Assembly: GCF_020567705.1 (NCBI RefSeq)
Contig: NZ_JAJDJU010000006.1
Coordinates: 1-64,000, forward strand
Direction: 5' to 3'
Length of the DNA stretch: 64,000 bases
Source: Acidocella sp. KAb 2-4
GTDB taxonomy: Bacteria > Pseudomonadota > Alphaproteobacteria > Acetobacterales > Acetobacteraceae
In this document: positions 4,057-55,549 of the stretch, piece by piece
How the letters are laid out: each line of letters opens with the position of its first letter
How positions within the stretch are numbered: position 1 is the first letter of the stretch
Position numbers and translations under genes: made by a program
The notes under the pieces: generated by a model
Told to the model about the DNA's origin: nothing
Databases searched by the model: none
The model's input: only the letters and a program-made list of their open reading frames with translations

Positions 4057-4228
4057 CCATCTCCGCCGTTGAAGCTGTTATTTTGCCAGGGTGCCATATC
4101 CCAGTCCGGTACTGCCAGGAGGATTCTTAACAGGTATCGCCGAATTTCAATCGGATTACGCCATCCGCGATGGATTAGCCGGGACAAAGCCCAATCAAGC
4201 CCCAAGACGCCGGAGAATTCTTCTTGAC

Positions 4229-4276
4229 TACCGAGCAAGAGCTCTGTAAACGCATTACAGAGCATTTGCTCGGTAA
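4229..4276. promoter_or_regulatory. Tandem palindromic operator upstream of P450 operon
   Basis: Two near-identical dyads lie side by side. Site 1 is TACCGAGC-AAGA-GCTCTGTA (4229-4248). Site 2 is TTACAGAGC-ATTT-GCTCGGTAA (4255-4276). Each fits TTACnGAGC-N4-GCTCnGTAA, and the centres are 27 bp apart. Together they also form one long inverted repeat. They end 44 nt before the P450 start codon. The TetR regulator encoded last in the same operon (6941-7591) is the obvious candidate ligand; this is inference. Confidence 0.75.
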
Positions 4277-4320
4277 TGCCATGTGGCGGCTGTGGCAACA
4301 AGAATTTGGAGGAACTCGGC

Positions 4321-5514
4321 GTGACGACAATGCAAGTGCCGGCGCATGTGCCGGCGGATCTGGTGCGGGATTTTAATTATTTTGACATGCGCGGAGAAAC
4401 CGATCTCTACCAGCATTTCCGCAAATGGCAGGACGGGCCTGACATCTTCTACTCGCCCCATTTCGGCGGACATTGGGTGCTCACCCGCTACGACGACATT
4501 GAACACGTGCTCAACAATGCCGCAGATTTCTCCAGCCGGTACCAAACCACACCGCCCAACCCCTCGTTGGTGACGATGATCGAGCATGATGGCCAGTTGC
4601 ACCGCGACTTCCGCGCTATCCTGCAACCTTTCTTTCTGCCCAAGAATATCAGCGAGCTGGAAAAAGTCGCCACCGACCTTACCGTATTGCTCATCGATGG
4701 CTTTTACGCCAAGGGTGAATGCGAGTTTACATCCGAATTCGCACTGAAAATGCCAATCATCATCGTTATGAGCCTGTGCGAGCTGCCGCAAGAGGATACC
4801 CCGTATCTGCTCGGCATCGTGGAGGACATCACCCGCTCGGGCAGCACCGAGGAACAGACCGAGGCATTCGGCAAGCTGTTCGGATATTTCGGCCAGAAGA
4901 TTATCCCGGCGCGGATGGCCAATCCGGGCAAAGACATGATCAGCGCCATCATCCAAGGCAAAGTCGATGGCGGCCGCTCTCCAACACCGGAGGAAATTCT
5001 CGGCCTATGCGGCCTGCTGGCCATCGGCGGGCTCGATACGGTGGCCAGCATGCTCGGCCTCATCGCCCTCTTCCTAGCCAATAACCCAGGCCATCGCCGC
5101 CGGCTGATCGAGCAGCCGGAAATTCTAGGCCCAGCGATTGAGGAGATGATGCGCCGCCACCACATCGCCAATGTCGCGCGCGTTGCCGCGCGGGACCTTG
5201 AGTACAAGGGCGTTACCTTCAAGCAGGGCGACATCATTCTCACCGCCACCAGTTTCGCTGGCATCGACGACCGGCATTTCCCCGATGCGATGACTGTTGA
5301 TTTTGATCGTCCGGATAAAAAACACCTTGTATTCGGCCGAGGCCCGCACCAATGCATCGGCTCCTTCCTGGCCCGCACTGAAATCCGCGTCTTCCTCACG
5401 GAATGGCTGAAGCGCATCCCCGATTTCGAGGTCAAGGCCGGCGAGAAACCAATCTCCCAGCCCGGTAAGGCCAACCGTGTGGAATATCTGCCACTCACCT
5501 GGAAGGTTTCATGA
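4321..5514 (+). CDS. Cytochrome P450, CYP101 (P450cam)-like
   Basis: A 397-residue soluble bacterial P450. The heme-ligand motif [10 protein letters not shown] is intact (Cys345). The I-helix GGLDTV (about 236-241) carries the Asp/Thr pair used in oxygen activation, and the K-helix E-M-M-R is at 275-278. The N-terminus ([13 protein letters not shown]), GGHW segment and I-helix resemble P450cam, so a terpenoid or other alicyclic substrate is plausible. I chose GTG 4321 because GGAGGAA (4308-4314) precedes it at ideal spacing. The frame also opens at ATG 4276, but that lies inside the operator. The stop overlaps the rubredoxin start (ATGA), so the two are translationally coupled. The usual 2Fe-2S putidaredoxin is not next to it. 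Confidence 0.92.
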
Positions 5515-5693
5515 GCGAGACCGTAACAATGAAGCGCTATATCTGCCTTTTTTGTGGCTTTATCTACGATGAAGCCAAGGGCATGCCCGAGCACGGCATC
5601 GCTTCCGGCACACGTTGGGAAGATGTGCCCGAAGATTGGATGTGCCCGGATTGCGGCAACGACAAAGCCGCTTTCGTCATGGAAGAACTCTAA
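5511..5693 (+). CDS. Rubredoxin
   Basis: A 60-residue rubredoxin of the AlkG type. Two knuckles, CLFCG and CPDCG, supply the four Cys ligands to a single iron. The conserved core [17 protein letters not shown] is intact. It starts at an ATG that overlaps the P450 stop codon (ATGA), with GGAAGG upstream. It is followed 38 nt later by an iron-sulfur flavoprotein reductase. The likely role is one-electron transfer from that reductase to the P450. Rubredoxins classically serve AlkB alkane hydroxylases, so a dedicated P450 rubredoxin is unusual. Confidence 0.95.
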
Positions 5694-5731
5694 GATCAAG
5701 CGACAAGACAGCGGGACGCCAAAGCCAAGCC

Positions 5732-6889
5732 ATGGACATAAATATATCCGATGATCTGCTCAAGCAGCACCTCATCGATCCGGAGCTCTGCATACGCTGC
5801 GATACATGCGAGTCGGCTTGCCCATCCAACGCCATCACGCATGACATCCGCAACTATGTGGTGGATGCGGATGCCTGCAATGGCTGCCTGGAATGCATCT
5901 CCGGCTGCCCCACCGGCGCCATCGACAATTGGCGGACGGTTCACCGCGGCGCAGCCTATACCGTGGCCGAGCAGCTTGGCTGGGACCACCTCCCCCCTGC
6001 CATGGGAGTGGCCGAAAAGACCAGGCAAGGCATCCCAGCCTCAGCCGCCACGCCGATGGAGAACGCCTATACCCGCGAAGCCCCGCTGCGTGCCATCGTG
6101 GTAGAAAACCGGCGCCTGACGGCGGAGACCAGCGCGAGTGATATCCGCCACATCGTGCTGGAAGCCGCCGACGATTTCGCCTGGCTGGAGGGACAGTCGA
6201 TTGGCGTCCTTCCCCCGGGTTTGGACGCCGCCGGTCACCGCCACATGATGCGGCTCTACTCCGTGGCCAGCCCCCGCGGCGGTGACAGCGGAATAAAGAA
6301 CCGGCTGGCGCTGACGGTGAAGCGGGTGTTGGAAGACCATGAAGGCAAGCCGCATCGCGGCCTTTGCTCCAACCATATCTGCGACCTGCAACCGGGCGCG
6401 GTGGCCGAAATCACCGGCCCGCATGGCCGTAATTTCCTGATGCCGGATGATCCATCGACAACATTGCTGATGATCTGCACCGGCACCGGCATCGCGCCAA
6501 TGCGCGCCATGCTCGCTCAGCGCCTGCAACGGCTGCACACAATAAGCGGCCGGCAAATCCTATTTTATGGCGCGCGCACGCCGGAAGAAATGCCTTACCA
6601 TGCCGAGTTGCTCGCCTTGCCGCGCGGCTTCGCCGAGACTGAATTCGCCTTCTCCCGCGTCGATGGTCAGCCGAAGCGGTACGTGCAAGATGCTCTACGC
6701 GATCATACGGCATTGGTGACCAACTGCCTGTCCGACGAAAATTGCTATATCTACCTGTGCGGGTTGAAGGGCATGGAGGCGGGCGTTCTGGCGGCGTTCG
6801 AAGAGATCTGCCGAAATTCCGGCATCGACTGGCACGAGTTAGCCGGCAAGCTCAAGCATAATGGGCGTCTGCATGTGGAAACCTATTGA
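5732..6889 (+). CDS. BoxA-like ferredoxin/NADPH reductase
   Basis: A 385-residue fusion. Residues 1-65 form a bacterial-type ferredoxin with two complete CxxCxxCxxxCP clusters (Cys20/23/26/30 and Cys49/52/55/59) for two [4Fe-4S] centres. Residues of about 110-385 are a ferredoxin-NADP reductase module with the FAD motif RLYSVASP, the nucleotide motif GTGIAPMR and a C-terminal tail ending RLHVETY. This architecture matches BoxA, the reductase of benzoyl-CoA epoxidase, but no boxB or boxC is nearby. Here it follows P450 and rubredoxin in one operon, so it probably passes NAD(P)H electrons to the rubredoxin. The ATG at 5732 starts exactly before the ferredoxin domain; the open frame upstream overlaps rubredoxin and was ignored. 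Confidence 0.88.
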   Translation: MDINISDDLLKQHLIDPELCIRCDTCESACPSNAITHDIRNYVVDADACNGCLECISGCPTGAIDNWRTVHRGAAYTVAEQLGWDHLPPAMGVAEKTRQGIPASAATPMENAYTREAPLRAIVVENRRLTAETSASDIRHIVLEAADDFAWLEGQSIGVLPPGLDAAGHRHMMRLYSVASPRGGDSGIKNRLALTVKRVLEDHEGKPHRGLCSNHICDLQPGAVAEITGPHGRNFLMPDDPSTTLLMICTGTGIAPMRAMLAQRLQRLHTISGRQILFYGARTPEEMPYHAELLALPRGFAETEFAFSRVDGQPKRYVQDALRDHTALVTNCLSDENCYIYLCGLKGMEAGVLAAFEEICRNSGIDWHELAGKLKHNGRLHVETY

Positions 6890-6940: not shown

Positions 6941-7591
6941 ATGACCACCACGGCAAAGCAAACCACTCGCCCCCGGCGAACCCGTAATGGCCCCTCGACC
7001 GAGAGCCGGATTCTCGACGTCGCGGAGAATCTGTTCGCGGAATACGGCTTCGACGCCGTGAGCATCAATCAGCTTGCCACCGTCGCGAACGTGACGATCG
7101 GTGCGTTGTATCACCATTTTCCGAGCAAGGAGGCGCTCTACGCCGCGGTAACAAGGCGTGTCTTCACGGCCAAATCCAGTCCGCCGCTCGCGATAACCTG
7201 GCCCGGCGCCTCCCCCCGCGAGCAGCTTACCCGGCTGGTCTCCTGGTTCGTCGGCACAATGATCCTCGACAAAAATTTTGGCCAGTTGCTCAAGCGTGAG
7301 CTGCTCGACCCGCGCCCCAATACACCGGAACTGATCGGCCAAGAGCTGTTCCAGTCGCAGCGCGAACTCTGCAAGCAACTGCTCGGCGAGCTTGTGCCCG
7401 GCGCCAATCCGGATGAGGGCGTCGCCGCCATGCTGGCCCTGCTGTTCGGCTACACCAACCTAAAGGGTATGCAGGCAATACTCCCCGGCATCAAGGACAG
7501 TTTCGACCAGCCCGAAGCCATCGCCGAGCGCGTCGTCAACCTGCTCCTTCATGGCTTGCAGGCCGAAAAGACGCAGCAAAACCAAGGCTGA
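6941..7591 (+). CDS. TetR family transcriptional regulator
   Basis: A 216-residue TetR-type repressor. The N-terminal helix-turn-helix runs from about residue 22 to 68 (ILDVAENLFAEYGFDAVSI, then TIGALYHHFPSKEALY). The C-terminal ligand domain is divergent, as usual. ATG 6941 has GGAG (6931-6934) upstream; the longer frame from TTG 6905 has no good SD. It is 51 nt after the reductase gene, so it is probably the last gene of the P450 operon. It may bind the double palindrome at 4229-4276 and sense the P450 substrate; this is inference. Confidence 0.85.
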   Translation: MTTTAKQTTRPRRTRNGPSTESRILDVAENLFAEYGFDAVSINQLATVANVTIGALYHHFPSKEALYAAVTRRVFTAKSSPPLAITWPGASPREQLTRLVSWFVGTMILDKNFGQLLKRELLDPRPNTPELIGQELFQSQRELCKQLLGELVPGANPDEGVAAMLALLFGYTNLKGMQAILPGIKDSFDQPEAIAERVVNLLLHGLQAEKTQQNQG

Positions 7592-8720: not shown

Positions 8721-9962
8721 CTACTCACCATGACGGCGCAAATACGCGCCCCGGCGCCGGCCCAGTTCCTGCGTACGCTCATCTGGCGAAACCCGCCTCG
8801 TCTCGGCTGGCAAGTGCCGCGCCAATTCGTCGAACCGAACGCGATGAATTACGGGCTGGGCCGGACGGCTGGAACGGTAATTGCGGATCAGGATCTGGCC
8901 TTGGTCAAATCCCGCACAATCCAGCCATTGCGCCACACCAGGGTCCCGGCGTGAGAGCACAAGCCTCACCGCGCCATCGGCATCAGGCGCGACCTGGGCG
9001 GAATTCAATGTGCTCTGCCGAGTGCGGAAGTCAATCGGACGCAGCCACACGTCAAAAATCTGAATTCCCCAATAAATCCCATTGGGTGGCTCTTTTAGTT
9101 CAATAATCAAAGCCTCATCATCCGCAACCTCGTAGCATGCCAGCACATATTCCGCGGTCGGGCTGCCAACCTCGCCGGAAATCGCCGGACCGATCGGCGC
9201 GAACAGGTTAACGCCCTTGGAATTCGCATGCACACGCTGGTAGAAGGCAAGCATCCACTCCTGCACAATGTAGCGGACATAATCGGCGGCAAAATTAATC
9301 CGGCGTGCCGTATGCGCCTCGTCAAATTCATCTGCGACGTAATGATCTGGCGCAATGGGGCTGATCCGCTCGATATGCAACTCCGTCGGCACCTTGTCCC
9401 ACCCCTCAATCGACGGGCGGAACAGGAGCCACTGATAACCAACATCCGGAAGCAGGGGGATCCAGTTCCCCTCGGCCTTTTCGGCACTCAGCGTCACCGT
9501 AAAGGAGCCATCCGGCGCGATCTCGAAATCGGCAAAATCATAGTTGGCGACCATGCGTGAATTCGGCGATCCCGGAAGCGCGCTGTTATGCTGCGCGAGC
9601 AGCATCTTACTGTCACGGATATTCGCCGTTATCCGGTAGGTCTGCGCACCATCGAGAAATACGGTTGCATAGTGGAAATCCGGCCCATTCCCACCCGAAC
9701 AATAAACATCAGTTTGCCAAGCCGTGTTCTTGAAAATCCGCGGATGCGCCATCCGCGGCACCAGCGCGAAATTATAGGCGATGGCCTGAGCTTCCATCAG
9801 CTGATGATAGGCGCGGGCACGCTGGTTGGGCGCGCTATCGAACTGCGGCGCGGTTTCAACAGCGATGCGCATCTCCTCAAGCGTCGCCAGATACCGCTCC
9901 CATGCGCGGCTTAAAACCGTTGACTTGCTCGTGAATTTCTTAGCGGTCGCGTCACCAAACAT
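8721..9962 (-). CDS. DUF1214-domain protein, second paralogue
   Basis: A 413-residue paralogue of the protein at 203-1426. Shared landmarks include AHPRIFKNTAWQTDVY near residue 80, the VGSPTAEY segment and a C-terminal IYWGIQIFDVW block. The open frame extends to 10088, but I place the start at ATG 9962. GGAGGA (9972-9977) lies 9 nt upstream, and from this Met the sequence aligns with the paralogue's N-terminus. The extra 42 residues of the longer frame look non-homologous. It lies downstream of an AraC regulator gene on the same strand. The function is unknown. Having two copies around the P450 and carboxylic acid reductase genes suggests a shared metabolic role. Confidence 0.78.
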   Translation of the reverse strand: MFGDATAKKFTSKSTVLSRAWERYLATLEEMRIAVETAPQFDSAPNQRARAYHQLMEAQAIAYNFALVPRMAHPRIFKNTAWQTDVYCSGGNGPDFHYATVFLDGAQTYRITANIRDSKMLLAQHNSALPGSPNSRMVANYDFADFEIAPDGSFTVTLSAEKAEGNWIPLLPDVGYQWLLFRPSIEGWDKVPTELHIERISPIAPDHYVADEFDEAHTARRINFAADYVRYIVQEWMLAFYQRVHANSKGVNLFAPIGPAISGEVGSPTAEYVLACYEVADDEALIIELKEPPNGIYWGIQIFDVWLRPIDFRTRQSTLNSAQVAPDADGAVRLVLSRRDPGVAQWLDCAGFDQGQILIRNYRSSRPAQPVIHRVRFDELARHLPAETRRVSPDERTQELGRRRGAYLRRHGE

Positions 9963-10084
9963 CGCCTTCATTCCTCCATACATTGCGGTGAACCTTATGA
10001 CCGACGCCACGGACGGGGAAAGATGACGACCAACGGAGTTTTTACGAGCATCACGAACAGATAAAACATTCCCCTTGGCTGTCG

Positions 10085-11128
10085 TCACGCCGACGGCCCT
10101 GCGCCCCCTTTGCGGCGCCTCGTCTGCCGCTGCTGGGCGGCAAACTCAGTCGGCGACACGCCGTGAAACGCCACGAATGCCCGCGTAAACGAGCTCTGCA
10201 CCGGATAACCCGTGCGCCGCGCGATTTCAGCGAACGGAATATCGCCCGCTTCAAGCAGCTCGATCGCCCGCATCATACGGATCCGCGTAAGATAAGCCAG
10301 AGGCGGCATGCCAATGATGGCCGCAAACCCCGCGGCAAAGCGCGACCGGGAGACACCAACCTCGTGCGCCAAACTGGCGACGGTCCAAGGCCGGTCAGGC
10401 CGCGTGTGCAGCAAGATAACCGCCGCATTAACCCAGCGCGTACTCGGCGCCCGGATCTCCATCGGCTGATCCCGCCAAAAGCCGTGATACATCCCGCGCA
10501 TGCTGTGCACGAAGCACAAACTCGCAAGCATGCTGCCAAAAGCCGACGCCCCCGGCCCGCGCAGGGCCTCCAGCCATTGCGCCGGATCTCCCGCCAACGC
10601 CCGGTCGTGAGGCGGCGCCCCGGTTTTGGTCATGAGCAATACCGCCGGGGCCGCCCGCACCGCCCGCGCCGCCGGCGACATATAGGCAAGCTCCAGCACG
10701 CAAGACATCACCACCGCCACGGCCGGTGGATTGCCAACCGGAATAGCACGCGGCTCCTCCCGCGGCGGCGTGTCGAGTACGACCTCCTCCTCCCTTCCCC
10801 GTCGGGGATGGGTCCCCAGGCTGTGCCGATCACCGTAGAAAACCAAAGCCGTCTCGCCGCTCTCCAGGCGCATGGCGGGCGCCTGCTGGCCGCCAACAGC
10901 GAGCCAGACACCACCTTCCAGCACCACATGCAGCACTGGCCGCTCGGCATCCGGGAATATGGCTGCCGCATCTCCGCCCAGCTCCACAACCGACACGCGC
11001 GCCTCGATCACCCTCAGATCACTCAACAGGGTCTCGCTCAGTTGCCCCCCGGGCCTGTCCTGCCCATCGGGGGACAAGCCCTGCCCCCATAACGCGCCGG
11101 ATGATTTGAGACGGCTTCGGTCGTGCAT
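10085..11128 (-). CDS. AraC family transcriptional regulator
   Basis: A 347-residue regulator. The N-terminal half is a cupin-type sensor domain (cupin_6-like, with a GDRHSLGTHP motif). The last 100 residues form the AraC double helix-turn-helix (WTVASLAHEVGVSRSRFAAGF and a second helix pair ending PTEFAAQQR). It lies between the carboxylic acid reductase gene (92 nt upstream, same strand) and a DUF1214 gene (122 nt downstream). It may control either gene; direct evidence is absent. No convincing SD is visible before its ATG. Confidence 0.88.
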   Translation of the reverse strand: MHDRSRLKSSGALWGQGLSPDGQDRPGGQLSETLLSDLRVIEARVSVVELGGDAAAIFPDAERPVLHVVLEGGVWLAVGGQQAPAMRLESGETALVFYGDRHSLGTHPRRGREEEVVLDTPPREEPRAIPVGNPPAVAVVMSCVLELAYMSPAARAVRAAPAVLLMTKTGAPPHDRALAGDPAQWLEALRGPGASAFGSMLASLCFVHSMRGMYHGFWRDQPMEIRAPSTRWVNAAVILLHTRPDRPWTVASLAHEVGVSRSRFAAGFAAIIGMPPLAYLTRIRMMRAIELLEAGDIPFAEIARRTGYPVQSSFTRAFVAFHGVSPTEFAAQQRQTRRRKGGAGPSA

Positions 11129-11220: not shown

Positions 11221-14200
11221 TCATCCGGCGCTCACCTTCGGCTGCTCGATCAACCCGAGCAATCTCATATCCTTCAGGTATTTGTGGATGTACCCCTCAC
11301 TGAGCTGCGGCACCTCCGGCCCGGCCGGGATGGTCTTCACCATGGCCTGGAACTCAGCACTGCTGACAGACATGGGGTGGGCCGGATGCGGCGCCGCGAA
11401 GTGCCCGAGGATCGACAGCGATGATTGCTGCCGCTCACTATCCGGCAGGTTCCGCAATTTATCCTCGAACCTGCGCACCCATTCCTGGTGATCGCCGATG
11501 CGCTTCACAGTGTAACCCGCGCTCTCCACCCAATCCACCACCGTGTCGAGCGACAAGCCATCATCGTGGTGAACATTGATCAGGTTGTAGCTGAAGAAGC
11601 CGGCATAAGGTCGGGCGCCGATCTGCTGCATCGCCGCCGCGACGAAATTGGCCGGCAACCCGTCATAATGGGCACGCTGGCGCTCACCGTTCGGGCCGAG
11701 CTCATAGAAGGATTTGGGCGCGATCCCCGTTTTCACGAGACTGAACAACAGCCGCGTAAACATATCGGTGACGTTGATCTGCCCTATATAGCGGGCATGA
11801 GGCATGATCATGTCCGCGCGGAACACATTCACCGGCAGGCCAAATTTTTCATTGACCTCACGCAACATAACCTCGCCGGCCCATTTGCTCGCCCCGTAGC
11901 CAGACGCGTACATGTCGATCAACGGCATTTCCGGTGCGCTTTTGCGCACATCCATCGTCTCCGGGCCATGCGCGAGATCGGCGCTCATATGCGGCACCGC
12001 GACGGACGACACGTAGTCAAATCGCTTCAGCCGCTCCATCAGCGCCAGACGGATGAGTTCCGCCGTGCCCAGCACGTTGGGCTCAAAGAGATTCCGGTAG
12101 GAGAGGCGGTGATTCACCAGCGCGGCGGGATGCACAATGTGATCCACCTCATCGGCAAGCCGCGCGAAGTTTGCCTCATCCAGCCCTAGCTTCGGCGTGG
12201 CGAGATCACCGACCAACATTTCCAGGTGGCGGGCGGCAAGCGTCCGGAAGCGCGCGGCCAGGTCATGGTCCAAGCTGCCAATGGCTTCATCCAGCCGCGC
12301 CCGCGCCGCCTGTGCATCCGCGCCGCGAATGATGCAGATGAGCTTACCGTCCACCTTGGCAAGCTGCTCCAGCCATTCCAGACACAGGAACCGGCCAAGG
12401 AAGCCATTCGCACCTGTCAGCAGTACCGTCTTGCTGACAGTCACCGGCGGTGCCGCCGCCTTCGCCGCCGCCAGCGTCGCTGCATCGAACAGCACGTCGA
12501 GCTTGAAATCAGACGCCTTCACACGCTCCGGATCAGGATGAATCTGCTTGTACCGTTCCAGCGGCCCGGCTTTGCCGAGCGCATCGTCGATATAGGCCGC
12601 CAGGCGCGAAGCGCTGGCCGAGGGATGCAACACGGTACTGACAGGCACGGAGACGCCGAACATCTCCTCGAACAGCAGCGAGAGGCTGACCGCGCCAAAT
12701 GAGTCGCCGCCAAGGTCGGAATAGCTCTGATGATTATCACCATCCAGCGCAGCGAGGCCAAGATTCGCCTTGAACGCACCGACGACGCGATCAAGCGTCG
12801 ACTGGCCGTCGCCACCCTGGCGCAGCAATGCGAGTTCGTCCCGCTGCTGGCGCTCCATCTCCTGATACATGGCCTCAAGCCTGTCGGCGTAGCGCCGCTT
12901 CAAATTGGGCCGCAACGGTTTTCGCACGCTGGAGAGAAGACCGTTTTCAAGGGTGAAAGCCTCACGCTCGATCAGTACATCGCGCGGCACCTCGAAGGAT
13001 TTCAGCCCGGCATCCCGCGCCGCCTCCTGGAGGTCGGCAAGTACAAGCTCCCTCAGCTCAGCATCGCTCGGTGCATGGCCGAGCCGTGCCTGCGCAAGGT
13101 CAAGCGCCGGGACAACCACGGCAAGCAGGAAAGACCGCTTGGAGCTGCCATAAACGTAGATCTGCCTAATGAACTTGCCACGGGCGAGAAACGCGGCCTC
13201 CAGCGGCCCGATGGCCACAAACTCCGCCTGGGAGAGCTTGATGACATTATTGCGGCGATCAACCCAGACCAGGTGCCCGGGCCCCCGCTCCTCCATAACA
13301 TCGCCGGTTTTAAGATAACCATCCGCATCGAAGATCGCAGCACTCGCCTCCGGGCGCTTAAAATAGCCCTGGATCATAAGCGTGGTTTTCACCAGCAGCT
13401 CACCGCGCGGGAACGGCCGGTCCGTTGTGTAATAGCCGAGCTCCGGCACATCAGCAAGCTTGTAGTCGACCACCATGCGGGGGACGATTTTGTTGAGCCA
13501 GGCCAACGCGCCGCCGCCCGCTTCCGTGCAGCCATAACCTTCAATCATCGGAATATCGAAACATTCCGCCATGAACTGGCGCACCTCCGGCGCGGTTGGC
13601 GAGCTGCCTACGCCACCGGCATTAAGGCGGTCACCGAGGAAGGACTTACTCATCTCCACCCGGACCGCCGCATCGGCAATTTCGGGAGCCTCCCCGCCCG
13701 CAACGCGGCGCTGAACCTCGGATTGATAGTGCTGGTAAACCAGCTCACACACACGCGGTATGAAGCTGATGAAGGTAGGCCGCGCAATGCGGATATCCTC
13801 AAAAAGCGATGACATGTCGCTCTTCAGCGTGAAATAAACAGTACCGCCCTGCGCAAGGCCGGAATGCACCATATTCCGGCCCATGAAATGGTTCATCGGC
13901 GCGTAGCCGATGGCCACGGTTGGCACGTAAACAGGCATCCAGCTCCAGAACTGGATACTGATCGCATCGTGGATCAATGCCCCCTTCGGCGTGCCGGTAC
14001 TGCCAGAGGTGTACATGATCATCGAGATATTATCGCGGCCGCGAGGCGACGGCGGTAGCGGCTCGAAGGTGAATTGCCCGCCATGGCCGACTGCTTCCGA
14101 GAATGTCGTCAACGTCGCCTTGCCACCATTTTCCGCGAGCCTCGCACGGACCGCCTCCACCAATCGGCGCTCGGCATCAATCCGGCTGTCATAGTCAATC

Positions 14201-14784
14201 ACGATCAGACTACGGATCGTATCCTGCCTGCACGCATACTCGGTCGCCAGCGCCAGATTGTCGATATTCGCAATCATGGTGACTGGTGCGGTATCACGCA
14301 ACACCTCTTCCATATCGTGCCTGGACAGATTGGCTTGCAGCGGCACGCTCACGGCCTGGGCATAGATACAGGCAAGATCAACCGCCGCCATCTCCGCACC
14401 GGTAAACGCGATGAACGCCACCATGTCACCGGCCGCAACGCGATGCTGCGGATGGTGCCGCCAGAAATTGGCGATCCCCTCGACCTGCCCGCGAAGCTCA
14501 GCGTAGCTAATCGTTTTGAATGCAGGCAGATAATGCCGCAAGCTTTCGCCCGTGCGGTCATCCTGTCCGATTTCATAAGCGCGCGATCCTAACGCGGGGC
14601 GTTCGGCATAGCCCTCCAGAGTCGCGGCGATGATTTCACGGTATGAGATGTCGGGTTCTTGAATCCTGCGCGTTACCTCGTCCTTGGGCTTCAGCGCGTT
14701 TAGCTGCGGGTCGGCCTCAGCCATGTCCCAGATCCGGGCTCCGGCTTTTTCAATGAGATGCTGCTGATTGAACTCCTGGACCAT
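11221..14784 (-). CDS. car: Carboxylic acid reductase (A-PCP-R)
   Basis: A 1187-residue three-domain enzyme that reduces a carboxylate to an aldehyde with ATP and NADPH. The adenylation domain (about residues 1-640) has MYTSGSTGTPKGA. The carrier domain has LGGDSFGA with the phosphopantetheine Ser near residue 693. The reductase domain begins near residue 785 with LLTGANGFLGR and has a YGASKWAGE catalytic segment. The length matches bacterial CARs (about 1170). GGGGGAAGAG precedes the ATG. No phosphopantetheinyl transferase is in the window, so priming must be encoded elsewhere. The upstream gap 14785-15073 shows nothing recognisable. The natural acid is unknown; a product of the adjacent oxidative genes is possible. 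Confidence 0.93.
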   Translation of the reverse strand: MVQEFNQQHLIEKAGARIWDMAEADPQLNALKPKDEVTRRIQEPDISYREIIAATLEGYAERPALGSRAYEIGQDDRTGESLRHYLPAFKTISYAELRGQVEGIANFWRHHPQHRVAAGDMVAFIAFTGAEMAAVDLACIYAQAVSVPLQANLSRHDMEEVLRDTAPVTMIANIDNLALATEYACRQDTIRSLIVIDYDSRIDAERRLVEAVRARLAENGGKATLTTFSEAVGHGGQFTFEPLPPSPRGRDNISMIMYTSGSTGTPKGALIHDAISIQFWSWMPVYVPTVAIGYAPMNHFMGRNMVHSGLAQGGTVYFTLKSDMSSLFEDIRIARPTFISFIPRVCELVYQHYQSEVQRRVAGGEAPEIADAAVRVEMSKSFLGDRLNAGGVGSSPTAPEVRQFMAECFDIPMIEGYGCTEAGGGALAWLNKIVPRMVVDYKLADVPELGYYTTDRPFPRGELLVKTTLMIQGYFKRPEASAAIFDADGYLKTGDVMEERGPGHLVWVDRRNNVIKLSQAEFVAIGPLEAAFLARGKFIRQIYVYGSSKRSFLLAVVVPALDLAQARLGHAPSDAELRELVLADLQEAARDAGLKSFEVPRDVLIEREAFTLENGLLSSVRKPLRPNLKRRYADRLEAMYQEMERQQRDELALLRQGGDGQSTLDRVVGAFKANLGLAALDGDNHQSYSDLGGDSFGAVSLSLLFEEMFGVSVPVSTVLHPSASASRLAAYIDDALGKAGPLERYKQIHPDPERVKASDFKLDVLFDAATLAAAKAAAPPVTVSKTVLLTGANGFLGRFLCLEWLEQLAKVDGKLICIIRGADAQAARARLDEAIGSLDHDLAARFRTLAARHLEMLVGDLATPKLGLDEANFARLADEVDHIVHPAALVNHRLSYRNLFEPNVLGTAELIRLALMERLKRFDYVSSVAVPHMSADLAHGPETMDVRKSAPEMPLIDMYASGYGASKWAGEVMLREVNEKFGLPVNVFRADMIMPHARYIGQINVTDMFTRLLFSLVKTGIAPKSFYELGPNGERQRAHYDGLPANFVAAAMQQIGARPYAGFFSYNLINVHHDDGLSLDTVVDWVESAGYTVKRIGDHQEWVRRFEDKLRNLPDSERQQSSLSILGHFAAPHPAHPMSVSSAEFQAMVKTIPAGPEVPQLSEGYIHKYLKDMRLLGLIEQPKVSAG

Positions 14785-15073: not shown

Positions 15074-15922
15074 TCACTTGCTCGACGTCATCCTTGCCAA
15101 CATCGCATCCATCCAGCGCGTTGGCAGCAGACGGCTGAGCAGCACGGTAAGCTGCGCGTCCTTGCCGACAAGATAGCGCAGCTTCGGCATGCCGGGGCCA
15201 ATTGCCGCGCGCACCGCCACACGCGCGACGTCTTCCGGCTTGGACGCGAATTTAAGCGCACCCGTCGCCATTTTCCGATAGCCGCGATAAAGCGCGCCAT
15301 AAGTCGCCTCAGTCTGCGCATCCATGCCTGCCAGCGCCTGATCCACCAACGGGCCTTGTGCCGCCGCCATCGGCGTATTTACGCCGCCTGGTTCCACCAG
15401 GCTGATGGCGATGCCGGAGCCATGCAGTTCCCGCCGCAGCGCATCCGCCAGCGCCTCCAGTGCAAATTTGGAGGCCGCATAACCGCCGATCATTGGCGCG
15501 GCCACCCGCCCTGCCATCGAGCTGAACAGCACGATGCGCCCACGCGCTGCGCGCAGCAGCGGCAACATACCCTGCACCACACTCACGGTGCCAAATACAT
15601 TGATCGCGAAAATCTTCTCCAACGCCGCCCGCGACATGAGTTCAACCGGGCTGACCGGCTGCACCGCGGCACAGAACAGCAGCGCATCCAGCCGTCCGGC
15701 CAATGCCGGAATAAGCGCCGCCAGCAGCGCTTCCACCGAGGCCGCATCCGCAACGTCACAGACAAAACTCCGCACGACCAAAGGCGCGACCTGGGCCGCC
15801 TGCTCCTCGTTCTGTACCACGGCGAAAATCCGCGCCTGCCCTTGCAACTGGCGGACCGCCTCCAGCCCGATTCCCCCCGCGGCACCGACAACCAACGCCG
15901 TACGTCCTGCTTCAATCCCCAT
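15074..15922 (-). CDS. SDR family oxidoreductase
   Basis: A 282-residue classical SDR: cofactor motif GAAGGIG near residue 12, Ser in SSMAG, catalytic YAASK, and a VEPGGVNTPM segment typical of retinol or steroid-dehydrogenase-like members. The start is ATG 15922 with GGAGAGGTGG upstream; the frame extends to 16036 without a better start. It is 49 nt downstream of a small alpha/beta-barrel protein on the same strand, probably one transcription unit. The substrate is unknown; an aldehyde or alcohol linked to the neighbouring carboxylic acid reductase is a guess. Confidence 0.85.
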   Translation of the reverse strand: MGIEAGRTALVVGAAGGIGLEAVRQLQGQARIFAVVQNEEQAAQVAPLVVRSFVCDVADAASVEALLAALIPALAGRLDALLFCAAVQPVSPVELMSRAALEKIFAINVFGTVSVVQGMLPLLRAARGRIVLFSSMAGRVAAPMIGGYAASKFALEALADALRRELHGSGIAISLVEPGGVNTPMAAAQGPLVDQALAGMDAQTEATYGALYRGYRKMATGALKFASKPEDVARVAVRAAIGPGMPKLRYLVGKDAQLTVLLSRLLPTRWMDAMLARMTSSK

Positions 15923-15971
15923 ATTCCACCTCTCCAGCGTTATCGGTAATATTTTATGTCGTTGGTTACCT

Positions 15972-16313
15972 TTATGCCGCCGACACCCGATCCGTGATCG
16001 CCACCCAAGGCACCATTTGCACTGAGCCCATATCAAAAGCGCTCGAGATCACCATGTCTGGCGTTCCGGCACGCGCCGCCAACGCCGCCAATGCCTGTGC
16101 CGGGTCTGCCGCCTCAAACTCATAAATAGCCATGTACTTCCATTGCGTTTCACCAGCTCCAGCGAACGAAAACCGCCGCGCCGCCTTGAAACCGGGAACA
16201 CGCAAGACGTCCGGCAGATGCTGTTTCGTGTACCAGGCATTGTACTCATCGTCCTTGCCCGCCACCGGGTTGGACAGCACAACCAGCACGCAACTCTTCA
16301 TATCTTGGCTCAT
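15972..16313 (-). CDS. Small dimeric alpha/beta-barrel (EthD/DUF4286-like) protein
   Basis: A protein of about 113 residues that looks like a ferredoxin-fold dimeric alpha/beta-barrel protein. The diagnostic segment is NPVAGKDDEYNAWYTKQHLP followed by DVLRVPGF, as seen in EthD- and DUF4286-like proteins near oxidative catabolic genes. ATG 16313 has GAGGGA upstream. It probably leads the SDR at 15074. Such proteins have been proposed to act as isomerases, lyases or accessory proteins. No catalytic residue can be named here. Confidence 0.65.
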   Translation of the reverse strand: MSQDMKSCVLVVLSNPVAGKDDEYNAWYTKQHLPDVLRVPGFKAARRFSFAGAGETQWKYMAIYEFEAADPAQALAALAARAGTPDMVISSAFDMGSVQMVPWVAITDRVSAA

Positions 16314-23706: not shown

Positions 23707-23768
23707 TATAACGCTTGTAATAAAATAAATCCAGCCGCGCTTCGTCAAGGCCGGTGAGGAGGGGAACG

Positions 23769-25535
23769 ATGATGCAGGCAACGGCTTCAGCCGGTCAAAC
23801 ACAGGCCCCGGTCCAGGATGAAATGACGGTTGACGTGCTGGTGGTCGGGTCCGGCATTGGCGGCATGACATCCGCCGTCACCGCGCATGATCTGGGCTGC
23901 GGCGAGGTGCTGGTGATCGAAAAGGCAGCCAAATTCGGCGGCACCAGCGCGCTGTCCGGCGGTGTCATCTGGATCCCCCACAACCGCCACGCCATCGCCG
24001 CCGGGCAGCAGGATTCCCTGGCCGAGGCGCATGATTACCTAAAGCGCACGATCCCCGACGAGATCCGCCGCGATGACATGCTGGACGCCTATCTGCGGGC
24101 CGGGCCCGAGATGATCGATTTTCTCGAGGACAACACCGCAGCCCGTTATGTCTCGCTCGGCATGTACCCCGACTACCACTCGCATATTCCCGGCGCGAAG
24201 CTCGGCCACCGCGCGCTGGAGCCGGCGCCGTTCAACGCCGCGCGCCTGGGCGGGGATAACGAGATCGTCAGCCACAGCCATCAGCTCTGGTACATGTTCG
24301 GGCGCATCCCGATGACGCTGACCGAGGGCAACACCATCCAGGTGCGGCTGAAGGGCTGGCAGAAAATGGTGGCGCGGCTGCTGCTGCGCTACGTGGTGGA
24401 CATTCCCTGGCGCCTGCGCTCGCGTTACGACCGGTACCGCAAAGTCGGCGGCGCGGGGGCGGCGGCGCTGTATCTGTCGCTGCAGCAGCGCGGCGTGCGC
24501 ATGTGGCGCAATGCGCCGATGCTCGAACTCTTGCACGAGAATGGCCGCGTGACCGGCGCGGTGGTGTGCCATGAGGGGCGTGAGATCATTGTGCGCAGCC
24601 GGCGCGGCGTGGTGCTGGCCGCTGGCGGCTTCGAACATAACCAGGCGTTGCGCGAGCGGTACTTGCCGAAGCCGACCAACGAGGCCTGGAGTGCGGGCGT
24701 GCCAACGAATACGGGCGATGCCCTGACGCAGGGCCAAAATCTCGGTGCCGCGACGAGCCTGTTGAACAAAGGCTGGTGGAACATGACCTGCAATGTTCCC
24801 GGCGAGCCGCGCCCGCGCCTAGTGATCATCGAGAAGGCATTGCCCGGCTGCTGCCTCGTCAACCGCGCCGGGCGGCGCTTCCTCAATGAATCACAGAATT
24901 ACCAAACACTGGTCGACCGTCTCTACGAAGCGCATACCGAGGAAAACCCCTGCGTCCCGGCTTTCCTGATCTTCGATGCGCGATACCGGCGCGATTATAT
25001 CATCGGCCCGCTCCTCACCGCGCGGATGCGCCCTGATTGGACCTTCCCGAAAAGCTGGTTCACCGAAGGTTTCATTGCCAGGGACCGCAGCATCGAGGGG
25101 CTGGCGAGACGGATGGGGATCGACCCGGCGGGGCTCGCGCAAACCGTCGCGCGCATGAATGAGTACGCGAAGACCGGCAAGGATCTGGAGTTCGGCCGTG
25201 GCGACACCGCCTATGACCGCCATTACGGCGACCCGGAGATCAAGCCGAACCCCAATCTGGCGCCCATCACCGAAGCGCCGTTCTACGCGATGAAGCTGCA
25301 TCCGGGCGATATCGGCACCCAGGGCGGGCTGGTGACCGGCACGAACGGAGAGGTGCTGCGCCCGGATGGCACGCCAGTTGCCGGGCTGTATGCCACGGGC
25401 AATTGCACGGCGGCGGTGATCCCCACCTATCCCGGCCCTGGCGCCACGATCGGCCCGGCCATGGTGTTTGGCTACCTGGCGGCCAAGCACATGGCGGGGC
25501 TCTCGCAGCTTGCCGCGGCGGGAGCCGCGCCGTGA
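23769..25535 (+). CDS. kstD: 3-oxosteroid 1-dehydrogenase (KstD-type flavoprotein)
   Basis: A 588-residue FAD enzyme of the 3-ketosteroid delta-1-dehydrogenase family, which introduces the C1-C2 double bond in ring A. The N-terminal FAD motif is VVGSGIGGMTSA, followed by FGGTSALSGGVIWIPHN. The C-terminal active-site region PFYAMKLHPGDIGTQGG carries the Tyr and Gly seen in characterised KstDs and is followed by LYATGNCTA and PGPGATIGPAM. The length is slightly longer than typical (about 510-560). SD GAGGAGGGG (23756-23764) supports ATG 23769 or 23772. It overlaps the next flavoprotein gene by GTGA. The exact substrate is not proven. Confidence 0.82.
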   Translation: MMQATASAGQTQAPVQDEMTVDVLVVGSGIGGMTSAVTAHDLGCGEVLVIEKAAKFGGTSALSGGVIWIPHNRHAIAAGQQDSLAEAHDYLKRTIPDEIRRDDMLDAYLRAGPEMIDFLEDNTAARYVSLGMYPDYHSHIPGAKLGHRALEPAPFNAARLGGDNEIVSHSHQLWYMFGRIPMTLTEGNTIQVRLKGWQKMVARLLLRYVVDIPWRLRSRYDRYRKVGGAGAAALYLSLQQRGVRMWRNAPMLELLHENGRVTGAVVCHEGREIIVRSRRGVVLAAGGFEHNQALRERYLPKPTNEAWSAGVPTNTGDALTQGQNLGAATSLLNKGWWNMTCNVPGEPRPRLVIIEKALPGCCLVNRAGRRFLNESQNYQTLVDRLYEAHTEENPCVPAFLIFDARYRRDYIIGPLLTARMRPDWTFPKSWFTEGFIARDRSIEGLARRMGIDPAGLAQTVARMNEYAKTGKDLEFGRGDTAYDRHYGDPEIKPNPNLAPITEAPFYAMKLHPGDIGTQGGLVTGTNGEVLRPDGTPVAGLYATGNCTAAVIPTYPGPGATIGPAMVFGYLAAKHMAGLSQLAAAGAAP

Positions 25536-37952: not shown

Positions 37953-38777
37953 GTGGTGGACGCCACGCCCCCGCAATTGGTGGAACTGGCCGCCGAGGCT
38001 GGCTATCGCGGCGTTTGCCTGTTCATGGAGTCAATGCCAACCCTGCCGCTGATGCCAGCTTTCCATCTACGCGGCCGCACCGCCATGGCGCGCGACACCA
38101 AAGCCCGGATGCAAGCCTCTGGTATCGAACTGGACCTCGCCTATCCGTTCACACTCAGCAGACATAACGAAGCGGCTGATTTCCTGCCCGCCTTGGAGAC
38201 CGCCGCGTGGCTCGGCGCGAAAGCCGTCAACCTGCTCCTTTATGATCGCGATCCGGCACGGCGGTTCGATCAGTTCGCCGCGTTCAGCGCCCTGGCGGAA
38301 GATCACGGCCTCCGCGTCGCGGTGGAATTCTATCCCCCTTCACAAATCGGTTCATTCACCGCCGCACTGGCGTTAGTGACGAAACTGGGCCGCCCCGCCG
38401 TGGCTGGCGTGAATATCGATCTGCTGCATCTGATGCGCTCTGGCGGCAGCTTCGACGAATTGCGCGCGGCGCCCTCGGCATATCTCCACTACGCACAGTT
38501 TTGCGATGCCACCTTACCGGGACCAGACCTTGACCCCGCTGAAGAGGCATCCGCCCACCGATTACTCCCCGGCGAAGGTCAGTTCGACCTCGCGAGCTTC
38601 GCCGCCGCCCTGCCTGCCGGGCTTTCAGCCAGCGTGGAGGTGCCGCGCAACCCAGCCATCCTCGCGGGCGAGGCCCAGCTGGACCGGGCCCGCCGGGCCC
38701 TTCACGCAACGGCCCAAAGTCTTGCGCTCAGTCCTCGGGCGCGATCCTCACCTCTAGCCCCGCCAGCGCCTCGGTAA
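37953..38777 (+). CDS. Sugar phosphate isomerase/epimerase-like TIM-barrel protein
   Basis: A protein of at least 274 residues of the xylose-isomerase-like/AP-endonuclease 2 TIM-barrel superfamily, with LAAEAGYRGVCLFME, AVNLLLYDRD, VAVEFYPPS and HYAQFCDATLPG segments (metal-binding Glu/Asp/His type). The annotated GTG start is uncertain. The frame is open from 37866, and the upstream codons read RLALDHLTVVDA, which looks like the first barrel strand, yet no ATG, GTG or TTG is available there. The 3' end overlaps the convergent ferredoxin gene by 50 nt. Substrate unknown. Confidence 0.7.
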   Translation: MVDATPPQLVELAAEAGYRGVCLFMESMPTLPLMPAFHLRGRTAMARDTKARMQASGIELDLAYPFTLSRHNEAADFLPALETAAWLGAKAVNLLLYDRDPARRFDQFAAFSALAEDHGLRVAVEFYPPSQIGSFTAALALVTKLGRPAVAGVNIDLLHLMRSGGSFDELRAAPSAYLHYAQFCDATLPGPDLDPAEEASAHRLLPGEGQFDLASFAAALPAGLSASVEVPRNPAILAGEAQLDRARRALHATAQSLALSPRARSSPLAPPAPR

Positions 38778-39078
38778 CCTGAATCTGGCAAGACAGACGC
38801 GAGCCATCCGTCCGATGGGTCGAAGACGACAGTAGCTCATCCTCATCCTCGGACATCGGCGCCAGCGTTGCCGCGGCCGGGCCGCCGACATAAACATGGC
38901 ACGTCGCGCAGGAGCAGCTGCCGCCGCAAACCGCCTGCAACTCGTCGAAACCATGATCCCGCAGCAGCCGCATCAGGCTCTTGCCCGGTTGAATTTCAAC
39001 TTGAGAGGTCTCCCCCTCCCGATTGGTAATCGACAGCACGCCCACCTTATATCCCGTCCCTTCATGCATATGTTTCAA
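38728..39078 (-). CDS. [2Fe-2S] ferredoxin
   Basis: A 116-residue plant/adrenodoxin-type ferredoxin. The cluster ligands are CGGSCSCATCHVYVG (C-x5-C-x2-C pattern) and a fourth Cys in SRLSCQIQV. It may deliver electrons to one or more Rieske oxygenases encoded nearby (27188, 41631, 48153), since none of them has an adjacent ferredoxin gene. The start is ATG 39078 or the second Met. Divergent from the flavin reductase at 39259. Confidence 0.9.
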   Translation of the reverse strand: MKHMHEGTGYKVGVLSITNREGETSQVEIQPGKSLMRLLRDHGFDELQAVCGGSCSCATCHVYVGGPAAATLAPMSEDEDELLSSSTHRTDGSRLSCQIQVTEALAGLEVRIAPED

Positions 39079-41630: not shown

Positions 41631-42713
41631 TCAGGCCTTCACGTAATAGCGGGAGTAGAAGTCGCGGAATTGTGGAATCGGGCCGTCGCCATCGCAGATG
41701 ATCGGGCTGGTCTCATATTTCTGCCGGTCCCAAACAACCTTGTCCTGATCAAACTGCTTGCAAATATCACGGATGATCGCCTTGGCCACGCCGGCGCGCT
41801 CCCCTTCCGCCTGCGCCCGCGGCTGGGTGAAGCAGAAGCGGGCATGCACATGGTCAAGCTCCACCGGCGTCAGGCAAGCCACGAGTATCGTTTCGCTGAT
41901 CCCGGTAAAGCGCGTCCAGCTCTGCCCCGGCCCCATGGTGTCGTAGCTGATGCAGCCATCAACCTCGCCCCATGGCGTGCCCATCTTCGCCTTCACATCC
42001 GCACCACGGCCCCACTCACCCCAGCGCAGCTCACCCAGGGGCACATTCGCGGTGCCATGAATATAGCGGAAATGGGCAACATCCACGCCATTCTCGGCCA
42101 TGTTCTGGATGGAGCCCCAAACGTTCCACTCATAAACCTCATAATCGGTCCAGTCCGGATCAGTCGTCTCCGGCAGGCGCACAACCTCCCAAAGCGGCGC
42201 GATGTCCTGCGGATGATACCAGGCCCAGATCCAGCGGTTGGCTTCCGTCACGTGCCAGGTGCGGATGCATTTGCGCTTGACCTGCGGCGGAATCACACGC
42301 GCATAAGGAATATCCTTAACCGTTCCATCGCCATCATAACGCCAAGCGTGAAACGGGCATTCCAGCAAATTGCCATGCACCTTGCCGCCATGCCCCATAT
42401 GCGCGCCAAGATGCTTGCAATACGCATCAACGATATGAACCTGGCCATCCTCGCCACGCCACATGGCGAGGTCCTTCGAGAAATAGCGCAGCGGCCGCAC
42501 CTCGCCCGGGGCCAGATTGGCGGAAAGCTCGATCGGGTACCAGCCAAACGGAATGCCGATATTCAGGTTACGCTCCTCCACGGAAGCGCGTCCCTTGACA
42601 TCGGCAAGACGCCAATCATTCAGCTCCTTGCCTTTGAGTTTTTCGATAACCTGCCAGACCGCGACGGGCGGCGTGCGGGCGTCGGTCGCGTCAGCCTGAT
42701 GTTCGTTGGACAT
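41631..42713 (-). CDS. Rieske oxygenase, KshA-class
   Basis: A 360-residue Rieske non-heme iron oxygenase of the 3-ketosteroid 9-alpha-hydroxylase class. The Rieske centre is Cys99-x-His101 and Cys119-x-x-His122 (YCKHLGAHMG, CPFHAWRY). The mononuclear site is ENGVDVAHFRYIHG. It has no beta subunit, as in KshA. ATG 42713 follows GAGGTGTCAC. It is flanked by amidase and amidohydrolase genes. It may hydroxylate a steroid or a C/D-ring derivative. A second KshA-like enzyme is at 48153. Confidence 0.85.
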   Translation of the reverse strand: MSNEHQADATDARTPPVAVWQVIEKLKGKELNDWRLADVKGRASVEERNLNIGIPFGWYPIELSANLAPGEVRPLRYFSKDLAMWRGEDGQVHIVDAYCKHLGAHMGHGGKVHGNLLECPFHAWRYDGDGTVKDIPYARVIPPQVKRKCIRTWHVTEANRWIWAWYHPQDIAPLWEVVRLPETTDPDWTDYEVYEWNVWGSIQNMAENGVDVAHFRYIHGTANVPLGELRWGEWGRGADVKAKMGTPWGEVDGCISYDTMGPGQSWTRFTGISETILVACLTPVELDHVHARFCFTQPRAQAEGERAGVAKAIIRDICKQFDQDKVVWDRQKYETSPIICDGDGPIPQFRDFYSRYYVKA

Positions 42714-42733
42714 GTGACACCTCAAAAATTTAC

Positions 42734-48049: not shown

Positions 48050-48152
48050 AAAAATACTAATAGCTTGAGTAAATAAATCCTATACGTATTATCTCTGTAC
48101 ACTTAGCCTGGCCCGCGTTATGTTGGCGGCAATATTCCGATGGGAGGAAATG

Positions 48153-49232
48153 ATGGCGAAAACCAGTGATTACGGTCTTGGCGAATTCACTTACCCGCGC
48201 GGCTGGTTCATGGTCGCGCGCTCGCAGGATCTGCAAAGCGGCGTCATGTCCGTCCGCTATTTTGGCGAGGATATGGTGATCTATCGCGGCCAGAGCGGCA
48301 AGGCCTACATGGTGGAGGCGTATTGCCCGCACATGGGCACGCATCTCGGCCTCAACAAAACATCTTATATCGTCAAGGACAGCACTCATATCGAGGGCGA
48401 CAACATCCGCTGCCCCTATCACGGCTGGCGGTTCGGGCCGGATGGGCGCTGCAACCAGATCGCCTACTCCCCGGTTTCACCACCCAAGGCGGCGGTGTTG
48501 CGGCGCTGGCAGATCGTCGAGCGCGCCGGCTGCCTGTGGGCTTGGTACGACCCCGAGGGCGGCGAGCCCGATTACGAGCTGCCCGCCTTCGAGAATTACG
48601 GCGCGCCGCATTGGGTGAACTGGGAGCTGCGCCATCTCGGCGACATGGATTGCCACCCTCAGGAGGTGGTCGACAACATCGCCGACAAGGCGCATCTGGA
48701 GCCCGTGCACGGCTCGCTTGCCATGGTCTCGTTCGAGAACGAGTTCGCCGGACATACGGTCCGCCAGATCCTGTCTGCCGGGCACCGAACACTGGCCGCC
48801 GATGGCGGCGAGCCGATGACCAATGACACCTGGTACACCGGCCCCGGCATTCTGCAATCGGTGATGATCGGTGCCAATCCCTCGCATATGCTGATCGCGC
48901 ATACGCCCATCGATGATGGCCGGCTGCGCGTGTGGTACGGGCTGCTGGTGAAAGTCGCCAGCGCCGAGCCGACGGCGGAAGACATCGCGGTGGCGCGCAG
49001 CTACGAAGACGCCGGGGTTGACGCCTTCGCGCAGGATTTCGAGATCTGGGCGAATAAGCGCGCCTGCGTCAACCCGATGATGGTGCGCGGCGACGGCCCG
49101 TTCGACAAGGTGCGGATCTGGTACCGCCAGTTCTACAATCCGCGGGCGCAGGCTGAAGCTTTCCAAAAACGCGTGGATGGCCGCTACACCACCCGCGGCA
49201 CCAAGACCGCACCTTGGGATAGCGCCGCCTGA
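48153..49232 (+). CDS. kshA: 3-ketosteroid 9-alpha-hydroxylase oxygenase, KshA-like
   Basis: A 359-residue Rieske oxygenase. The Rieske ligands are Cys58-x-His60 (AYCPHMGTHLG) and Cys87-x-x-His90 (CPYHGWRFG). The mononuclear site reads DNIADKAHLEPVHG. The N-terminal YPRGWF and overall length match KshA, which hydroxylates C9 of the steroid nucleus and triggers ring-B opening. No KshB reductase gene is adjacent. SD GGGAGG supports ATG 48153 (or 48150). A strong terminator follows. Confidence 0.85.
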   Translation: MAKTSDYGLGEFTYPRGWFMVARSQDLQSGVMSVRYFGEDMVIYRGQSGKAYMVEAYCPHMGTHLGLNKTSYIVKDSTHIEGDNIRCPYHGWRFGPDGRCNQIAYSPVSPPKAAVLRRWQIVERAGCLWAWYDPEGGEPDYELPAFENYGAPHWVNWELRHLGDMDCHPQEVVDNIADKAHLEPVHGSLAMVSFENEFAGHTVRQILSAGHRTLAADGGEPMTNDTWYTGPGILQSVMIGANPSHMLIAHTPIDDGRLRVWYGLLVKVASAEPTAEDIAVARSYEDAGVDAFAQDFEIWANKRACVNPMMVRGDGPFDKVRIWYRQFYNPRAQAEAFQKRVDGRYTTRGTKTAPWDSAA

Positions 49233-52337: not shown

Positions 52338-52406
52338 AGCGTCTCCACCCCATCGGTGAAATTTTACCGGCTATTGGGAAGCCATCCTCCCGAAGCAGGA
52401 GACGCC

Positions 52407-55456: not shown

Positions 55457-55466
55457 TTTGCGTATT
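55457..55466 (+). promoter_or_regulatory. TTTGCGTATT element
   Basis: Exact copy, located between a TTGATA (55450-55455) and a TATATA (55475-55480), about 85 nt upstream of hsaA copy 2. The position fits an operator overlapping a promoter. Confidence 0.5.
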
Positions 55467-55549
55467 TGCTACCATATATACTCTACGAACAACACAAGCG
55501 AGGCCATAGCTGTAGCGCCGCGCTGCGAATGTCATGGGGATGTGACGCG

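Follow-up and report, generated by a model that had tools for sequence, protein, structure and literature searches.

Does a P450 that sits directly ahead of a rubredoxin gene and a BoxA-type reductase gene receive its electrons through both of them? The question is raised by positions 4,321 to 6,889 of a 64,000-nucleotide stretch of Acidocella sp. KAb 2-4 (contig NZ_JAJDJU010000006.1, hereafter the window), where an earlier note had proposed an uncommon P450 redox chain from NADPH through FAD, two [4Fe-4S] centres and rubredoxin iron to heme. Our analyses suggest, with a probability of about 0.5, that the three genes make up one P450 monooxygenase system with this linear chain. The gene group is conserved in three Acidocella genomes and both of its halves recur in other genomes, but for the passage of electrons via rubredoxin several wirings fit. 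The genes concerned are these.

4321..5514, + strand: cytochrome P450, CYP101-like, 397 amino acids; GTG start with an in-frame ATG at 4330; Pfam p450
5511..5693, + strand: rubredoxin, 60 amino acids; Pfam Rubredoxin PF00301
5732..6889, + strand: BoxA-type reductase, 385 amino acids, a 2x[4Fe-4S] ferredoxin domain fused to a plant-type ferredoxin-NADP reductase (FNR); TIGR03224
about 6941..7591, + strand: TetR-family regulator, probable final gene of the group; Pfam TetR_N
15074..16036, - strand: short-chain dehydrogenase/reductase (SDR), whose orthologue lies between BoxA and TetR in both Acidocella relatives (64% identity to the L022/L023 SDR)

The gene group and its conservation in Acidocella

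The open reading frames place the TGA stop of the P450 and the ATG of the rubredoxin on shared bases (ATGA, 5511-5514), as the earlier note had read them, and the reductase, which ends at 6889, most likely starts at ATG 5732 rather than at the mechanically called TTG 5615. Genome searches found one rubredoxin, three P450s and one BoxA-type gene in this genome, with two more weak matches in the BoxA search that cover the ferredoxin part or the FNR part only. Given one rubredoxin and three P450s, we estimate that a random same-strand P450-rubredoxin adjacency would arise about 1 time in 1000, and the pair recurs.

Evaluating the individual proteins confirmed much of what had been read from the letters. 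The P450 carries the heme-cysteine motif FxxGxHxCxG and the I-helix acid-threonine pair, and CYP101D1 and P450cam entries are among its best PDB sequence matches, in keeping with the CYP101-like landmarks ascribed to it. By convention, a protein joins the CYP101 family when it shares some 40% identity or more with a named member; the P450 is 34.4% identical to a Novosphingobium aromaticivorans plasmid P450 that may or may not be a CYP101 enzyme. The small protein has two CxxC motifs, scores 75.3 bits on PF00301 (cut-off 23) and finds rubredoxins as its PDB sequence matches. The reductase has the claimed BoxA-type build of two 4Fe-4S clusters fused to FNR, with Fer4 repeats, FAD_binding_6 and NAD_binding_1 domains in Pfam, all eight cluster cysteines kept, PDB matches of its C-terminal part to plastid- and cyanobacterial-type FNRs, and a TIGR03224 (BoxA, NCBIfam) score of 512.3 bits, above the cut-off of 459.2. 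Structure models from three-row alignments were of low confidence (mean predicted local distance difference test score, pLDDT, 38.2 for the P450 and 57.4 for BoxA), and nothing here rests on them.

Conservation of the same gene order elsewhere had been named as the check on the proposal, and here the outcome was divided, the group being kept in three Acidocella genomes and the full three-gene set being seen nowhere else. In the two relatives, G009 (L022/L034) and G016 (L023/L035), the P450-rubredoxin pair is followed by an FAD_binding_2 flavoprotein (assigned by a Pfam run on the L022 copy) and then by BoxA, SDR and TetR. Rubredoxin follows the P450 within about 20 bases in both, and the rubredoxin beside the P450 is the sole one found in each of the three genomes. 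Identities to the window proteins are 86% (G009) and 84% (G016) for the P450, 78% and 81% for the rubredoxin at the same position, 60% and 59% for BoxA, and 62-63% for TetR; the idea that the window BoxA is too divergent for orthology was weakened by the similar identity of TetR and SDR (62-64%). All four genes, P450, rubredoxin, BoxA and TetR, are under purifying selection, because the ratios of nonsynonymous to synonymous change (dN/dS) against the relatives are low: 0.09-0.11 for P450 and rubredoxin (0.09 for the rubredoxin, and 0.16 between the two relatives), 0.22-0.30 for BoxA and 0.27-0.33 for TetR.

A benzoyl-CoA epoxidase role for the window protein is very unlikely because no BoxB was detected in the genome. 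The BoxB protein query gave zero matches there, and in a control with another program (tblastn) the same query retrieved BoxB at other loci with 54-78% identity. The earlier remark that no boxB, boxC or alkB adjoins the group also stood: a Pfam scan that covered 39 proteins of the window, and not the genome as a whole, showed neither boxC nor alkB.

Recurrence of the two gene pairs

To place the reductase, we considered the neighbours of 71 BoxA-type genes. Besides that of the window, 14 came from 147 relatives, 22 from a phylum sample of 398 genomes, 29 from 249 Burkholderiaceae genomes and 5 from 13 plasmid records. Thirty Burkholderiaceae loci were taken, of which L096 is the already counted L068; the count does not extend to the other places listed in Burkholderiaceae or to 8 plasmids of Mycetohabitans. 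BoxB is encoded beside the BoxA-type gene at 61 of the 71 places (10 + 22 + 28 + 1), including all 22 of the other matches in the phylum sample. A P450 shares the group at seven (the window, L004/L022, L005/L023, L017/L024, L094, L042 and L043), a fraction that is not a natural frequency, as the places were reached by similarity to the window or L042 protein among the matches listed. The P450 is the direct neighbour of BoxA in L024, L042, L094 and L043; rubredoxin separates the two in the window, and rubredoxin plus the flavoprotein in L022 and L023. These P450s fall into four types (the Acidocella trio, L024, KK10/L094 and Cupriavidus necator N-1) with 24-34% mutual identity, spread over two proteobacterial classes, the P450s of Cupriavidus KK10 and L094 being 92% identical to each other.

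Small carriers at these P450-BoxA places vary, with rubredoxin in the Acidocella trio only and a ferredoxin at one Cupriavidus place. The latter is C. necator N-1 (L043), where a single-cluster ferredoxin (4110-4418) precedes P450 and BoxA, an order that fits a plan of reductase, small carrier and P450; among the solved structures related to this ferredoxin are a CYP51 fusion and the CYP143 ferredoxin. At L024:5248-10451, another BoxA-type gene of Acidocella is accompanied by a Rieske oxygenase and two P450s, of which one is a neighbour on the same strand and the other is divergent.

The six P450-linked BoxA proteins scored on TIGR03224 (L094 was not scored) reached 428-512 bits, four of them below the cut-off and the window's above it. 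A BoxA tree of 39 rows sets the three Acidocella rows apart as a group (100/97), and the six P450-linked rows need 2 changes in it. BoxA may have been recruited to P450s once or repeatedly, because a single clade was not rejected (approximately unbiased (AU) test, p 0.33) and L017, L042 and L043 are long branches.

Neither boxB nor a P450 was seen at three of the 71 places (L016, L044 and L171). For L016 (G041), the longer stretch L093 likewise lacks BoxB and P450, and its position in the tree is among box-type rows. On a Sulfitobacter plasmid (L044:6001-6705) there is a BoxA-type piece without the ferredoxin part, beside an IS6 transposase and ben genes. The third is a Rhizobium leguminosarum plasmid BoxA (L171:1786-4730; 664 bits) with no annotated boxB within 3.5 kb, preceded by a pyridine-nucleotide-disulphide oxidoreductase with a rhodanese domain.

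The other half, P450 with rubredoxin, was followed from both genes. P450s at E 1e-55 or better occur in 6 of 397 Acetobacteraceae genomes and 6 of 398 phylum-sample genomes, the window genome counted in both, and a contig search returned the two Acidocella relatives and three distant P450s (26-27% identity), near which neither rubredoxin nor BoxA was matched in the stretches examined. Outside Acidocella, two genomes have a rubredoxin immediately behind a related P450, namely G175 (L089; 73% complete) and G617 (L088). On a Massilia plasmid (L040:5971-9046), the genes behind an apparently frame-broken P450 are those of a rubredoxin and a [2Fe-2S] ferredoxin and an open reading frame annotated as SDR; of five opened plasmid P450 loci (H1-H5), this one alone has a rubredoxin. 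In G173 the rubredoxin lies about 550 bases from the P450 and is convergent, and in G237 (66% complete; reached via P450s without rubredoxin) the only detected rubredoxin adjoins a different P450 (L132:1489-2837) with a best tblastn identity of 24% and 22-26% identity to the other P450s compared.

Starting from rubredoxin, 43 of 395 Acetobacteraceae genomes have one, at 44 places, of which we examined 31 (30 loci plus L136), the 13 left out being nearly all lower-scoring. Five of the 31 adjoin a P450 (G000, G009, G173 with its convergent pair, G175 and G237) and the other 26 do not; given few P450s per genome, we estimate that chance would supply far below one such neighbour. No AlkB was recognised near the Acetobacteraceae rubredoxins with two motif patterns, which make a weak test. 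A 23-row P450 tree rejected a single clade of the five same-strand rubredoxin-linked P450s (AU p 0.002), which means repeated origin or repeated retention of the pairing.

The proposed chain and its rivals

In the proposed chain, FAD of the BoxA-type protein would accept hydride from NADPH, the hydride would be split into single electrons across the two fused [4Fe-4S] clusters, the clusters would pass these to the small rubredoxin, and rubredoxin would dock on the P450 and reduce its heme twice per cycle, a reductase of the benzoyl-CoA epoxidase type having been recruited to a P450. We infer each of these steps and the order of carriers. Gene order makes a P450 role for the reductase likely and a role of the rubredoxin in the P450 system plausible, and the linear sequence of FAD, two [4Fe-4S] clusters, rubredoxin and heme is itself plausible. 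It is one of several fitting wirings because three P450-BoxA places show no carrier and P450-rubredoxin pairs lack BoxA. A preference of the window reductase for NADPH would follow by analogy with BoxAB, which prefers NADPH according to PMC3200346.

Several observations weigh against this chain. The complete set of P450, rubredoxin and BoxA was found in Acidocella alone, the flavoprotein intervenes between rubredoxin and BoxA in both relatives, and BoxA has changed much faster between window and relatives (dN 0.32-0.35, against 0.09-0.11 for P450 and rubredoxin), with TetR alike at 0.30-0.32. Four further Acidocella genomes (G007, G020, G031 and G034) have a rubredoxin without a P450 in the examined stretch, within the searched stretch rubredoxin is missing beside 17 of the 23 tree P450s, and the second relative in G617 (L091, 45%) has reductase-like and [2Fe-2S]-ferredoxin-like reading frames beside it instead. 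Motif patterns found no small carrier near BoxA in L024 and L042, a single L042 hit 3 kb off on the opposite strand being judged chance, and none was seen in L094, which extends only about 1.5 kb each side. The P450 could also be served by other proteins, namely two Reductase_C-type ferredoxin reductases of the same genome and a [2Fe-2S] ferredoxin candidate of the window (38728-39078). Typical rubredoxin potentials lie near 0 to -100 mV and those of P450 heme at about -170 to -300 mV. As the former are less negative, the step from rubredoxin to heme could be uphill unless this rubredoxin is tuned. Net charges (-7 for rubredoxin, -7 for BoxA residues 1-75 and -11 for the P450) give no clear docking argument.

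Because P450-BoxA pairs occur without a carrier in sight, the main rival is that the fused ferredoxin domain reduces the P450 directly, with rubredoxin a parallel or accessory donor or serving another partner such as a flavoprotein, an account we find unlikely on the whole but worth holding in view. The carrier-free places L024, L042 and L094 speak for it, and so might the second cluster of the L024 BoxA, CxxAxxC, which resembles the three-cysteine pattern of [3Fe-4S] P450 ferredoxins; as a sign of a P450 link this change is only suggestive, because the boxB-linked L069 is altered at the same position. A different partner for rubredoxin would agree with the FAD_binding_2 protein that follows it in L022/L023 and with C. 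necator N-1, where a rubredoxin precedes a flavoprotein-like reading frame (judged by eye). Against direct reduction stand the close spacing of rubredoxin and P450 in all three Acidocella genomes, the constraint on the rubredoxin, as strong as that on the P450 in comparisons with the window, and the P450-rubredoxin pairs with no BoxA matched nearby.

A second, weaker rival has another reductase of the cell serving P450 and rubredoxin, and the BoxA-type protein supplying electrons to some other enzyme, for instance a Rieske oxygenase of a steroid pathway. The two Reductase_C-type reductases and the ferredoxin candidate would make this workable, Rieske oxygenases lie near BoxA in L022, L023 and L024 with three more within the window, and a motif search of the window found no KshB-like FNR-[2Fe-2S] reductase. 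Yet Rieske proteins were unmatched in Cupriavidus L042, L043 and L094, where BoxA adjoins a P450, and in the window over 20 kb separate BoxA from the Rieske genes. We consider this explanation rather improbable. That the protein is an ordinary BoxA of the aerobic benzoyl-CoA pathway, beside a P450-rubredoxin pair by chance, is barely credible: the equivalog cut-off is passed, and the full-scoring Rhizobium plasmid BoxA without annotated boxB means that distance from boxB cannot alone prove another role, but the genome has no BoxB match, boxB accompanies all 22 other phylum-sample matches, and the Acidocella rows form their own group.

Looking across these loci, we lean, by slightly better than even odds, towards the view that at least four P450 types have taken over BoxA-type reductases as their NADPH-dependent reductases, in one recruitment or in several, and that the carrier is interchangeable (rubredoxin, single-cluster ferredoxin or none). 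Searches of open-licence PMC papers showed no BoxA-type reductase described as partner of a P450 or a rubredoxin. If true, the fusion of a 2[4Fe-4S] ferredoxin to a plant-type FNR would be a P450 redox-partner class, which would matter as bacterial P450s are often limited by their redox partners, and the four P450 types would allow the same reductase type to be compared with rubredoxin, with ferredoxin and with no separate carrier seen. Genes of the recruited type may easily be labelled as subunits of benzoyl-CoA epoxidase, a likely mis-annotation where BoxA occurs without BoxB. Since rubredoxins usually have a rather high potential, the linear chain also raises the question of how one of them could drive a P450.

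The surroundings and comparison with known systems

Much of the remaining window (23754-58229) looks like a steroid-type catabolic island, here in an acidophile genus, and a steroid- or terpenoid-like substrate for the P450 is a guess drawn purely from it, the nearest island gene being about 17 kb from BoxA. The island also holds a thiolase, enoyl-CoA hydratases, a CoA transferase and an NMO-family protein. The names HsaA, HsaC and ketosteroid dehydrogenase are family-level only, because the matches lie below the NCBI cut-offs. No P450 was recognised beside the ferredoxin candidate. These and other window genes are as follows.

203-1444 and 8721-10088: two DUF1214 proteins
11221-14784, - strand: carboxylic acid reductase (NF041592, 1350 bits, above cut-off)
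23754-25535: 3-ketosteroid-dehydrogenase-like (KstD-like) FAD protein (NCBI model match below cut-off)
38728-39078, - strand: candidate [2Fe-2S] ferredoxin, putidaredoxin-like, recognised by motif (family searches gave no match within their limits)
41634-42725 and 48120-49229: KshA_C-domain Rieske oxygenases
52356-53297: HsaC-like protein (NCBI model match below cut-off)
53322-54515 and 55466-56755: HsaA-like proteins (NCBI model match below cut-off)

Compared with the class I system of P450cam (CYP101A1), the group is alike in that a soluble CYP101-like P450 has genes for a flavoprotein reductase and for a small iron-sulfur carrier next to it. It differs in that the carrier is a one-iron rubredoxin where P450cam uses the [2Fe-2S] putidaredoxin, and in that two [4Fe-4S] motifs fused to a plant-type FNR make up the reductase, in place of a glutathione-reductase-fold flavoprotein. 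A rubredoxin as P450 donor is already known from Mycobacterium tuberculosis, the original study of RubB with P450s being reportedly that of Sushko et al. There, as described in PMC11133467 and PMC9430723, RubB carries electrons to CYP124, CYP125 and CYP142, so that rubredoxin is likewise paired with P450, and the reductases are FprA and FdR, not BoxA-type; PMC9430723 describes the rubredoxin genes as alkB-rubAB, next to alkB.

With BoxA of benzoyl-CoA 2,3-epoxidase (BoxAB) the reductase shares domain order and cluster cysteines, and it is 43-51% identical to boxB-linked BoxA over the longer tblastn matches; here it is paired by gene order with a P450, and the genome search detected no BoxB. 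From the system of AlkB, rubredoxin and rubredoxin reductase the group differs in having a soluble P450 instead of the membrane diiron AlkB and in the fold family of its reductase, and the two are alike in joining a rubredoxin to a monooxygenase (for AlkB, PMC8918992).

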